Source: Methyloprofundus sp.
GTDB taxonomy: Bacteria > Pseudomonadota > Gammaproteobacteria > Methylococcales > Methylomonadaceae
Direction: 5' to 3'
DNA length: 64,000 bases
Assembly: GCA_014859465.1 (NCBI GenBank)
Contig: JACUUF010000006.1
Coordinates: 1-64,000 of the forward strand
The notes below the pieces were generated by a model. The model was given only the letters and a program-made list of their open reading frames with translations. It ran no database searches and was not told where the DNA came from. The position numbers were made by a program, and so were the translations under genes. This document shows, piece after piece, positions 1,949-7,355 of this stretch (position 1 is its first letter; each line of letters begins with the position of its first letter).

Positions 1949-2116
1949 ATGGCTGATAAAAAAAAATCATGTGATTTGTGCGGACTTCCTGTAGAAATCG
2001 AAGGCTTTACTCTATTAACAAAAGAAGGTAAAAAGAATTTTTGTTGCGAAGGCTGTCAGGGCATTTATGAAATGCTCAATGAAGACAACCTACTTCCTGA
2101 TGAATCTAAAATCTAA
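1949..2116 (+). CDS. 55 aa stand-alone heavy-metal-binding mini-protein (like the N-terminal metal-binding domain of CcoI/FixI-type P-type ATPases)
   Basis: Below the ORF-track cutoff. Translation MADKKKSCDLCGLPVEIEGFTLLTKEGKKNFCCEGCQGIYEMLNEDNLLPDESKI with CxxC and CCxxC motifs. Confidence 0.78.
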   Translation: MADKKKSCDLCGLPVEIEGFTLLTKEGKKNFCCEGCQGIYEMLNEDNLLPDESKI

Positions 2117-2717: not shown

Positions 2718-3323
2718 ATGTCTATACAAAAAGAAATTATTTTACGTTATAAATCTTCAGGCCATGTAAGGTTCCAAATCCCGGAACGCTTATGCCGTCC
2801 TGATATTGCCACTTTTGTTGCCGACGCTATTCAACAAATTGATGGTGTTTATCAAGTCAATCTCTATAGAAACAAAAAGAAACTTGCGATTCGCTTTGTC
2901 AATGAAACACTGTCCTTTCAAGACCTAGCACAACAACTTTTAACTTTGCTCACAGACCTAGAGAATAAAAGTTTTTTTATCACCAAAGCAAAACCAGCTA
3001 AAACCTCTCTAATAAAAAATACCTTTTCTGGCTGGAAAGCGACGCGCTGGGCAAAAGACAAATACACAGAAACCAAAGAAACAGCACAGGCCATTGGTAT
3101 TTTGGCAAAATTAGGTTTGAAAAAAAAACCTGAAATTCTTGCCAACCCAGAAAAAACACTAATCAGCTTTTTTAATGATGTTTTGATTTTGTTTCTGGTT
3201 AAAACTCACTGGAAATTAATCACCAAAAAATGGTTACTAGAACCACTTAAATATCGCTACCAGTGGCTAACCATTTTTTATCTGATGTATTTATTTATCC
3301 GCTCTAAAAACAAAAACAAATAA
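2718..3323 (+). CDS. HMA-like domain protein with C-terminal membrane segment
   Basis: 201 aa ORF; N-terminal beta-alpha-beta-like region lacking CxxC resembles the N-terminus of the downstream ATPase; ends 2 nt before the ATPase start. Confidence 0.65.
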   Translation: MSIQKEIILRYKSSGHVRFQIPERLCRPDIATFVADAIQQIDGVYQVNLYRNKKKLAIRFVNETLSFQDLAQQLLTLLTDLENKSFFITKAKPAKTSLIKNTFSGWKATRWAKDKYTETKETAQAIGILAKLGLKKKPEILANPEKTLISFFNDVLILFLVKTHWKLITKKWLLEPLKYRYQWLTIFYLMYLFIRSKNKNK

Positions 3324-3324
3324 A

Positions 3325-5790
3325 TTGACGCTAAATATGACGCAATCATTTCAGCCCAAAAATTTTACACTCGCTCATGAACTGAAAAATCGTATAAGAA
3401 TCCTTGTTCCTATATTAAAGAAAGATCCTGAGCGTACCTATATTTTTGAAATTATTTTAAAAAAACGCCCCGAAATAAAAGCCATAAAATCTGTCCCAGA
3501 CATTGGTTCCGTCACGCTTTATTTTGATCACCAAGCGTTACCTAAAAAAAACCTACTCATTCTTTTAGATACCGTTTTAGGTAATGTTGGTAAGAAAAAA
3601 ATCAGCCTACCTAAAAGTAATGTTGTTGAAGACCCCAATGTGCCTTTACAAGACATTAGCCTAGCCATTGAAGGTATGAGCTGTGCCTCTTGCGCCTTGC
3701 TATTGGAAATGTCTTTAAAGCGTGATCCACGCATACACAGTGCCTCGGTCAACTTTGCTTCAGCCATAGCAACTGCCCGGGGCCGTTTATCGCGCCAAGA
3801 AATGTCCGCTATTATTGCTAAAGTCGGCTACAAAGCCAATTTAATGGATACGCTTTCGCAGCGTCAGGGGCTGATCGAAAAGGAGCGCCTGCGCCTGGCC
3901 AGCGCTAAAAAAAGATTTATTTGGGCCAGCGTCCTAAGTGCTCCGGTCATTGCCGTTGGCATGGCCATGCCCGCAGGTCGTTTTTATCATTGGTTTCAGT
4001 TCGCACTGACCACACCGGTGGTGTTTGTCGCCGGCGCTACATTTTTCACCAAAGCGTGGAAATTAGCCAAAATGGGCAATGCCAATATGGATAGTTTAAT
4101 TGCTATCGGTGTTGGTTCTGCTTATGGTTATAGCTTACCTTCCTTATTAAGAGGCCGAGGTCATCTTTATTTTGAGGCCGCAGCTAGCATTATTTCATTC
4201 GTCTTGCTGGGGCGCTATATGGAAGAAAGCGCCAAAGGCAAGGCGGGCGAAGCGATTAGAAAATTAATCGATCTACAGCCACAAACAGCAACCTTATTAA
4301 AAAACGGCCGAGAATTTACCATCAGCATTGATGATATTCAATTAGATGATTTACTACTGATTCGTCCTGGCGAAAAAATACCGACCGACGGCGAAGTAGT
4401 CTCAGGACTATCGACGGTTGATGAAGCGATGGTCACCGGTGAAAGTATGCCTATCGTTAAAGAGACCGGGCATAAAGTCATCGGTGGCTGTGTGAATGGC
4501 ACCGGCGTCTTAACCATTAAAGCGACCGCTATTGGCATGGATACTGTATTAGCTGGCATTATTCACATGGTAGATCATGCGCAAGCTTCCAAATTACCGG
4601 TACAAAAATTAGTAGATAAAATATCTGCCGTATTTGTACCCAGTGTTATGGCTGTTTCTGCCCTCACCTTTGTTTCCTGGACAATCGCTGGCGCACCGTT
4701 TAGCTTTGCTTTTAGTAACGCCATCACCGTACTACTCATTGCCTGCCCTTGCGCCTTAGGCTTAGCAACACCAACCGCCATTATGGTCGGTACCGGGCAA
4801 TCAGCTAAACGCGGCGTGTATATACGCAACGGCGAAAGCTTAGAAACAGCAACCCATTTAACCGCAATTATTTTCGATAAAACTGGCACCATCACCGAAG
4901 GCAGACCACAAGTTACTGATTTTATTAACATCAGCGATCATGGTAATGAAATATTATTAACACATATCGCTTCTGCCGAACATAATTCTGAGCATTTTTT
5001 AGCTCAAGCGATCGTCAATTACGCGCAAGCAGAACATGACTTTGAATTTAAGGCCGTTAAAGATTTCAATATTACTGCTGGTCGCGGCTTAAAAGCTAAA
5101 GTCGGACATTATCAAATACTGATTGGCAATCAAGCTTGGCTAGAAGAGCACAACATCGACATTTCTGAATTAATGGCGCATGCAGACACTTTAGGGCTTT
5201 CTGGAAAAACACCGGTATTTACCGCATTTAACGGCAAAGCGACCGCCTTATTCGGTATTGCAGATCAGCCACGCGAATCGGCTAAAGCAGCGATAGCGGC
5301 GCTACATAAATTAAATATCGAAACCCTCATGGTAACCGGCGATACCAGTGCAACCGCGCATCATATTGCAGCTTTAGTTGGCATTAAAACAGTCATTGCT
5401 CATGCGTCACCGGAACAAAAACTACAAGAAATCCACCGCCTGCAAAACGAAGGCGGTTCAGTCGGCATGATTGGTGATGGTATTAATGACGCACCCGCCC
5501 TTGCTGCGGCTAATGTCGGCTTTGCTATTGGCCACGGAACTGACATTGCTATTGAATCTGCCGACTTAACCTTAGTCAATGGTGATATTGCTAAAGTAGC
5601 CGAAACCGTTGAACTCAGCACCTTAACCATGAAGATCATTAAACAGAATTTATTCTGGGCTTTTGGTTACAATACTATCGCTATTCCAGTTGCCGCAATC
5701 GGCAAACTCAACCCCATGATTGCTTCTGCCGCTATGGCATTAAGCTCTGTTTCAGTAATTGTAAATTCTCTACGTATCAACGGAAAATAA
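3325..5790 (+). CDS. copA: heavy-metal (Cu+) translocating P1B-type ATPase, CopA-like
   Basis: HMA motif GMSCASC, CPC motif IACPCALG, phosphorylation motif DKTGTIT, GDGINDAPAL hinge; TTG start at 3325 or ATG at 3337. Confidence 0.93.
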   Translation: MTLNMTQSFQPKNFTLAHELKNRIRILVPILKKDPERTYIFEIILKKRPEIKAIKSVPDIGSVTLYFDHQALPKKNLLILLDTVLGNVGKKKISLPKSNVVEDPNVPLQDISLAIEGMSCASCALLLEMSLKRDPRIHSASVNFASAIATARGRLSRQEMSAIIAKVGYKANLMDTLSQRQGLIEKERLRLASAKKRFIWASVLSAPVIAVGMAMPAGRFYHWFQFALTTPVVFVAGATFFTKAWKLAKMGNANMDSLIAIGVGSAYGYSLPSLLRGRGHLYFEAAASIISFVLLGRYMEESAKGKAGEAIRKLIDLQPQTATLLKNGREFTISIDDIQLDDLLLIRPGEKIPTDGEVVSGLSTVDEAMVTGESMPIVKETGHKVIGGCVNGTGVLTIKATAIGMDTVLAGIIHMVDHAQASKLPVQKLVDKISAVFVPSVMAVSALTFVSWTIAGAPFSFAFSNAITVLLIACPCALGLATPTAIMVGTGQSAKRGVYIRNGESLETATHLTAIIFDKTGTITEGRPQVTDFINISDHGNEILLTHIASAEHNSEHFLAQAIVNYAQAEHDFEFKAVKDFNITAGRGLKAKVGHYQILIGNQAWLEEHNIDISELMAHADTLGLSGKTPVFTAFNGKATALFGIADQPRESAKAAIAALHKLNIETLMVTGDTSATAHHIAALVGIKTVIAHASPEQKLQEIHRLQNEGGSVGMIGDGINDAPALAAANVGFAIGHGTDIAIESADLTLVNGDIAKVAETVELSTLTMKIIKQNLFWAFGYNTIAIPVAAIGKLNPMIASAAMALSSVSVIVNSLRINGK

Positions 5791-5791
5791 C

Positions 5792-6553
5792 GTGACCGAT
5801 TTTTTGGCTAACTTAGATTACACCGTTTACACCCTCGCCTTTATGACCGGTTTTTTGGGCAGTGGACATTGTGCAGGGATGTGCGGCGCTTTAGTCGCTG
5901 GCTTCTTTATGAAGACTGAGAAAAAAAGCGCATGGCCTTATCTAACCTACCATTTCGCGCGTATTACCATGTACACCCTGGTCGGTATCACAGCCGCAAC
6001 GCTTGGTGCAGCCTTAATATCCACTGGCATGCTCGGCCACATCCAAGGCTTTCTCCAGGTGTTCATTGGTTTTTTTGTTATTATCCTGGCGCTAGGTATT
6101 GCCGGTCTTTCGCCCTGGCAGTTTTCCATGAAATACATGCCCACCAAAGTGCTGAATAAAATTTTCATGGCTGCTGCTCGACGCGGCTCATCACTCGGCG
6201 CGGCAATGGGCGGCATGTTAAATGGCCTAATGCCCTGCCCTTTAACCTTTGCTATGGCGGTTAATGCGACTTCAGCCCCCTCTCCGGCAGAAGGTGGACT
6301 AATGATGCTAGCCTTAGGCTTAGGCACTTTACCTACTATGCTTGTCGTTACCTTTGCCTTTGGCAAGCTAGGCACTAAAGCCCGTGGCCTTATGCTCAAA
6401 ACAGCAGCGGTCATTATGATTATAATGGGCGCTAATACCATGTATATGGGGCTTAAATTTCTTGCTTCAGACGCAGGCTTTAAGGATATGATACATAGCA
6501 TGCATTCCATGGAAATGATGGGAATGGATCACTCTACTCACAATACGCCATAA
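5792..6553 (+). CDS. sulfite exporter TauE/SafE (UreH-like) family membrane protein with Met/His-rich tail
   Basis: 253 aa, GTG start; GFLGSGHCAGMCGALV N-terminal motif and GLMPCPLTFAMA repeat typical of the family; C-terminus IHSMHSMEMMGMDHSTH. Confidence 0.85.
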   Translation: MTDFLANLDYTVYTLAFMTGFLGSGHCAGMCGALVAGFFMKTEKKSAWPYLTYHFARITMYTLVGITAATLGAALISTGMLGHIQGFLQVFIGFFVIILALGIAGLSPWQFSMKYMPTKVLNKIFMAAARRGSSLGAAMGGMLNGLMPCPLTFAMAVNATSAPSPAEGGLMMLALGLGTLPTMLVVTFAFGKLGTKARGLMLKTAAVIMIIMGANTMYMGLKFLASDAGFKDMIHSMHSMEMMGMDHSTHNTP

Positions 6554-6566
6554 ATCTTGCACGCTT

Positions 6567-7355
6567 ATGAAACTCGCCCCTCACGATGTACTTATTTTAC
6601 ATGCTGCGGCGGATCTATTAGAAAACCCTAGCTTTAGCTCTAAAGTCACAAAAACCGTCGGTAGTACCATTGAAAAAACCATTGCTATCTTACCGACGCA
6701 AGTCGCCTTATCGCTCAATGACCTTACGCGTACAGCCCTAGAGAAATCACTAGAGGGGGCTATTTTCACTTTAAGCTCACGCGAAAGCAGCAAGCCCTAT
6801 AGCAAAACGCATCAGTTTTTAGTAGGCTTAAGTGGTGCTATCGGCGGTACTTTTGGTTTTGCCGCCATTACTGCTGAACTGCCGGTTTCAACGACGATTA
6901 TGCTGCGCTCAATCGCTGAAATTGCACGCTATCACGGCGAAAATATTAGTCACGCCAACACTAAAATGGCCTGTTTAGAAGTCTTCGCCCTCAGCGATAG
7001 TGCTAAACATGGTTCAGAAACGGGTTATTATGCAATTCGTTCTTTGCTAGCAAAATCCCTATCTGATGCGGCCGCACAACTTGCCAGCCCGTCACTCAGC
7101 AAAGAAAGTGCGCCCTTAATCAGTAAAGCGATCAATCAAATTGCCGCCCGTTTTAGTATGCCCATTACAGAAAAAATTGCCGCACAAAGCATACCCGTTA
7201 TCGGTGCGATTGGTGGCGCCAGCATTAACCTTATGTTTATAAGGTACTTTCAAAGCTTAGCGCATGCACACTTTGCGTTACGTCACCTTGAACGCAAATA
7301 TACCCCCGAATTGGTAAAATTAAATTATCAAAAATGGATAGCGCGACAAAACTAA
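6567..7355 (+). CDS. EcsC family protein
   Basis: 262 aa; overall pattern (GLSGAIGGTFGFAAITAELPVSTTIMLRSIAEIAR, IPVIGAIGGASINLMFIRYFQSLAHAHFALRHLERKY) matches the EcsC family as I know it. Confidence 0.8.
   Translation: MKLAPHDVLILHAAADLLENPSFSSKVTKTVGSTIEKTIAILPTQVALSLNDLTRTALEKSLEGAIFTLSSRESSKPYSKTHQFLVGLSGAIGGTFGFAAITAELPVSTTIMLRSIAEIARYHGENISHANTKMACLEVFALSDSAKHGSETGYYAIRSLLAKSLSDAAAQLASPSLSKESAPLISKAINQIAARFSMPITEKIAAQSIPVIGAIGGASINLMFIRYFQSLAHAHFALRHLERKYTPELVKLNYQKWIARQN

Follow-up and report, generated by a model that had tools for sequence, protein, structure and literature searches.

Particulate methane monooxygenase (pMMO) makes methanotrophs dependent on copper. The genome of M. 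capsulatus encodes several CopA-like pumps and no CueR homolog, which to its authors pointed to a different kind of regulation (PMC517821). A sigma-54-controlled copper cluster that includes copA is known from Myxococcus (CorSR; PMC3707914). In R. capsulatus, the pump CcoI carries a pair of copper sites at its N-terminus. The first, N-MBS1 (CPAC), is important for activity, and the proposals for it are that it regulates the ATPase or receives copper from some donor that is not CopZ (PMC8475189). In mycobacteria, P-ATPases are organised by small transmembrane (TM) proteins (PacL) whose tails bind metal or are charged (PMC9374683, PMC13043812). Here we describe a locus in a window that is the whole 64,000-nucleotide stretch of DNA analysed. 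Its features are as follows:

1361-1383, + strand: conserved upstream block, a possible activator site, some 100 bp upstream of the -24/-12 element
1470-1484, + strand: sigma-54-type -24/-12 element TGGCATTGCTCTTGC, 56 bp before the o83 start
1526-1777, + strand: o83, small protein at a conserved cluster position (alignment)
1949-2116, + strand: stand-alone half PF12156/TRASH-type mini-protein of 55 aa with five invariant cysteines (Pfam, alignment, pN/pS, AlphaFold, hhalign)
2149-2484, + strand: o111, at a conserved cluster position (alignment)
2718-3323, + strand: o201, about 200 aa, with a weak HMA_2 match (alignment)
3337-5790, + strand: P1B heavy-metal ATPase of the Cu(I) type (TIGR01511, motifs)
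5792-6553, + strand: SafE/DsbD_2-type membrane protein (PF13386, E 1.6e-41)
6567-7355, + strand: EcsC-family protein (PF12787, E 1.2e-29), present in part of the relatives

The cluster order is o83, mini-protein, o111, o201, P1B copper ATPase and SafE/DsbD_2, followed in some cases by EcsC. The initial annotation had marked 1949-2116 as a missed reading frame of 55 residues with CDLCG and CCEGC motifs. This interval translates on the + strand to MADKKKSCDLCGLPVEIEGFTLLTKEGKKNFCCEGCQGIYEMLNEDNLLPDESKI*, that is, 55 residues and a stop, and both motifs are present in it, with the cysteines arranged as C8-x2-C11 and C32-C33-x2-C36 (CDLCG and FCCEGC). The frame is kept in relatives, for which dN/dS relative to the window copy is 0.03–0.23, and the pooled pN/pS of the gene is 0.139. 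Compared with two other loci (L001 and L002), the coding DNA is 94–95% conserved, against 81–84% for the adjacent upstream spacer. Given the retained frame, the low dN/dS and pN/pS and the stronger conservation of coding DNA than of spacer, we take the interval to be a real gene that earlier annotation had skipped. Absence of cysteine conservation in orthologous loci had been named as a refuting result; instead, C8, C11, C32, C33 and C36, together with two phenylalanines, are invariant in 17 of 17 diverse stand-alone copies, so that the proposed gene is borne out by open frame, purifying selection and conserved cysteines alike. In the window, no clear Shine–Dalgarno sequence was seen by eye before the gene, and a scan for sigma-70 promoters and terminators around the frame gave no clear excess over shuffles. 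A plasmid collection gave no match.

The mini-protein shares the CxxCG ... FCCxGC pattern of PF12156 (ATPase-cat_bd), the N-terminal module of CcoI/FixI (CopA2-type) copper ATPases. An HMM search against this family, put forward in the initial annotation as a check, gives a match above the curated cut-off (Pfam; E 1.6e-8, 35.6 bits versus 27) but to half a domain and not a whole one, because only profile positions 1–43 of 86 are covered. The likeness to the CcoI/FixI N-terminal metal-binding domain holds up when profiles are compared: hhalign aligns the mini-protein profile to CcoI/FixI N-termini over 49 columns with 98% probability and E 1.9e-13. Unlike the CcoI/FixI domain, the mini-protein is free, with its own stop codon and no fusion to an HMA domain and ATPase core, and the pump of its cluster is not a CcoI. 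PF12156-type frames were seen as stand-alone ones within the order and nearly always as ATPase-fused ones outside it, and 17 of 17 stand-alone relatives match PF12156 at E<=0.1. Judged by sequence, the mini-protein is the detached first half of the CcoI/FixI N-terminal metal-binding module, the N-MBS1 region. NCBIfam holds no family model for it, and we found no description of a stand-alone PF12156 protein in the literature searched.

A TRASH profile is matched by 16 of 17 stand-alone relatives at E<=0.1, and the match of the mini-protein itself to TRASH_HVO_1752_C falls below the cut-off (24 bits versus 27, E 4.4e-5). The TRASH arrangement, C-x2-C...C-x3-C in a treble-clef fold, is found in the mini-protein, with the fold being a prediction: in the AlphaFold model (pLDDT 77, pTM 0.54), two strands are followed by a helix that begins right behind the CC pair, which suggests a TRASH-type treble clef. 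The fold neighbours of this model are L24e ribosomal zinc domains (the closest), the copper chaperone NosL (7og7) and the MYM5 TRASH domain, all with weak E-values and none below 0.001; a phmmer search against the PDB gave chance-level L24e matches only. The predicted treble clef is common to the mini-protein and to TRASH proteins such as the HVO_1752 C-terminal domain and the NosL fold, from which the mini-protein differs in having no regulator or lipoprotein part and only 55 aa. CopZ/Atx1 chaperones are likewise small cysteine proteins encoded near a Cu(I)-ATPase; by contrast, the mini-protein is without the HMA fold, as searches of Pfam and NCBIfam gave no match to HMA (PF00403), and the CopZ-like protein of the genome lies elsewhere, beside another CopA. 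The mini-protein is probably a cytosolic, cysteine-rich, TRASH-type protein and a putative metal binder.

The cluster ATPase scores 576.5 bits against TIGR01511 (NCBIfam cut-off 397) and has an HMA_2-like N-terminus, an HMA domain with GMSCASC, and the motifs CPC, YN-x4-P (YNTIAIP) and M-x2-SS (MALSS). These last three are the mark of Cu(I) pumps, and score and motifs together identify a P1B-1 Cu(I) ATPase. In a tree of 24 ATPases, some rows of which have long branches, the cluster pumps, including two distant ones, form one clade (100/99) apart from CcoI. Among the ATPases compared, the CCxGC module occurs in no cluster pump and GM(S/T)C(A/V)SC in all of them. An assignment of the cluster pump to CcoI/FixI was rejected on both grounds, the separate clade and the missing CCxGC. 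The CcoI of this genome is encoded separately, with its own full PF12156 domain, and is apparently split over two contigs, and another CopA is adjoined by a 70-aa CopZ-like HMA protein. Because this chaperone stands beside that other CopA, the cluster pump has no adjacent CopZ; and because the genome has a CopA and a CcoI as well, the pump with which the free half-domain is associated is of a third type. The initial annotation had described a free protein upstream of an ATPase with GMSCASC. It is indeed stand-alone and linked to that ATPase, but two conserved genes (2149-2484 and 2718-3323) lie between them.

The remaining cluster proteins are less readily classified. o83 has one predicted TM helix (by eye), often with a C-terminal FSCH in relatives, and no convincing match in Pfam. 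o111 combines a His-containing N-terminus, one TM segment (by eye) and a conserved KDFVLQQKENLEDIVAE-type tail; no Pfam family scored above its cut-off. In o201, the C-terminal region is conserved in the alignment and the N-terminal part is weakly HMA_2/HMA-like, degenerate and without CxxC (HMA_2 E 5e-5 in a relative); this protein was seen with this cluster only, in the samples searched. The layout of a small TM protein, a metal-binding element and a P1B ATPase resembles the PacL (DUF1490)/DUF6110 effluxosome (PMC9374683, PMC13043812), and o111 shares this likeness in that its TM segment leads into a charged tail, whereas the cysteine metal-binding element of the cluster is a separate soluble protein. 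Membership of o111 or o83 in PacL (DUF1490) or DUF6110 was rejected, with no Pfam match listed at E<=1. Our literature search found no description of the whole cluster. What appears to be new here is that a known module occurs as a stand-alone protein in a conserved cluster around a different pump type.

In 28 sampled loci that contain o111, o201 and the ATPase, the gene immediately before o111 is that of the mini-protein; these loci were chosen through mini-protein matches and come from four families of the order and one other family of the class (f1, f4, f5, f6 and f92). Given this choice of loci, we asked the reverse question, starting from o201. Within the order, o201 is present in 159 of 301 genomes and a stand-alone mini-protein copy in 156 of these 159 (odds ratio 33, Fisher p 1e-17, shared ancestry ignored). 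Among the matches listed, a copy lies 367–805 bp upstream on the same strand at 108 of 111 o201 places, a set weighted towards genomes among the mini-protein matches listed. In two of the three o201 genomes without a copy, o201 borders the end of its contig; the third is a genuine absence: a complete genome (G061; L155, C1:3242000-3252500) keeps o83, o111, o201 and the ATPase with no recognisable mini-protein, which was either lost or never present there. Because the other cluster genes are kept in that genome, the mini-protein is strongly retained yet not strictly needed. In a class-wide sample, o201 was found in 5 of 369 genomes, all 5 with a stand-alone mini-protein; nearly all other PF12156-type matches were 800-aa ATPases. 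A phylum-wide sample added two distant genomes (G917 and G691) with the same cluster and the mini-protein gene in the same place. At two loci (L139:2333-10486 and L140:2554-10631), genes for an FtsX-like permease, an ABC ATPase, a CCG-motif membrane protein and a TlpA-like lipoprotein, named from sequence by eye in these distant genomes, stand between o83 and the mini-protein gene. The distribution of the mini-protein follows lineage, and the cluster occurs mainly in methane-eating bacteria. A strict link to pMMO was rejected, as the mini-protein is missing from f7 genomes that bear pmoA and present in f92 genomes that do not.

Upstream of the cluster, the -24/-12 match in the window alone is not beyond chance. 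Of 31 loci, 20 have an element that fits the consensus at 8 or more of 10 positions, in 19 of them at -53 to -77; shuffles gave a mean of 0.9, and within these loci 41 of 324 starts of other genes had one (p 6e-10, for loci that are related). The genome of the window has rpoN, and no enhancer-binding-protein gene was found next to the cluster when the loci were searched for a Walker-A-type motif. The cluster may be under sigma-54 control, and the block at 1361-1383, whose conservation extends to 7 relatives in the genus, is a possible activator site. With a pump cluster, an unannotated mini-protein and a sigma-54-like promoter, the locus would offer concrete genes and a site for methanotroph copper regulation.

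The homology to PF12156, the five invariant cysteines, the conserved order, the co-occurrence in 156 of 159 genomes and the Cu(I) type of the ATPase lead us to favour a model in which the mini-protein is a trans-acting, Cu(I)-binding partner that loads or regulates the distinct Cu(I)-ATPase of the cluster, a reading to which we give about an even chance. In this model, the mini-protein would take up Cu(I) through the CxxC and CCxxC thiolates. It would then either pass the ion on to the HMA domain (GM(S/T)CASC) of the ATPase or, in its loaded state, dock and switch the pump on. o83, o111 and o201 would hold the pump and its partners together at the membrane, and the pump would move Cu(I) to the periplasm, where SafE may assist. 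Copper binding, the pump interaction, the direction of transport and the scaffold role of o83, o111 and o201 are steps that we infer. Copies away from the pump in many genomes, and the complete genome G061 with the other cluster genes but no mini-protein, weigh against this reading. The mini-protein would thus do in trans for the cluster pump the job of the first N-terminal site of CcoI, and the locus would be a natural dissection of CcoI, in which an N-terminal site of debated role occurs as a free protein. More speculatively, and with considerable doubt, it may represent a new class of copper metallochaperones that act in trans and are built on a treble clef and not an HMA fold, split from the N-terminus of a respiratory copper pump and recruited, with membrane scaffolds and sigma-54 control, into a dedicated copper-export platform common in gammaproteobacterial methanotrophs.

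A four-cysteine treble clef is typical of structural zinc, and the mini-protein could hold Zn(II) constitutively and serve as an assembly or docking factor for the pump complex and not as a metal carrier. The closest solved folds, zinc-binding L24e domains and a MYM TRASH domain, agree with such a role, as do the TRASH-profile match in 16 of 17 members and the appearance of o111 and o83 as small membrane scaffolds; however, the CC pair contributes a fifth invariant cysteine, one more than a structural site requires, and mutation has shown the homologous N-terminal site of CcoI to be important for copper delivery (PMC8475189). We consider a purely structural zinc module conceivable, if somewhat unlikely. 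Because the same four-cysteine geometry also serves structural zinc, the small soluble copper carrier suggested in the initial annotation is a plausible role that we infer in competition with the structural one, and the data fit a role in regulation or assembly equally well.

TRASH domains act in archaeal copper regulators, and metal loading of a cytosolic sensor or regulator might alter its contact with the pump or a transcription factor, with no delivery of copper. The match to the HVO_1752 C-terminal TRASH domain (E 4.4e-5, below cut-off), the further copies away from the pump and the proposal that N-MBS1 of CcoI regulates ATPase activity (PMC8475189) fit this idea, but the motif search of the loci found no enhancer-binding-protein gene and hence no regulatory partner at hand, and we regard it as improbable. 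Far more improbable still is a chance or degenerate frame, left over, for instance, from a CcoI-type pump gene: the coverage of half a domain and the stops inside second copies of some relatives would suit it, whereas purifying selection, invariant cysteines and the same cluster place across families and distant genomes contradict it, and CcoI is still encoded elsewhere in the genome.

Copies of the mini-protein also occur away from the pump. Among 150 copies listed from the order, 40 lie on contigs without a compared o201. A second copy type adjoins rlmI, or is found near trk, lpxH, ppiB or cysS, and contains an internal stop in some relatives. The genome of the window has one such copy (L020:5162-5314, G000:C274:33161-33310), after trkA/trkH-like genes and before lpxH. 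Copies of this second type, with the pattern CALCG...FCCAGC, were seen at L020, L090, L093, L103, L105 and L114, and lie beside rlmI in other genera. At a further locus (L012:3588-3740), a stand-alone copy of 50 aa is located between an ion-channel-like gene and genes for outer-membrane/RND efflux proteins that resemble Cus.
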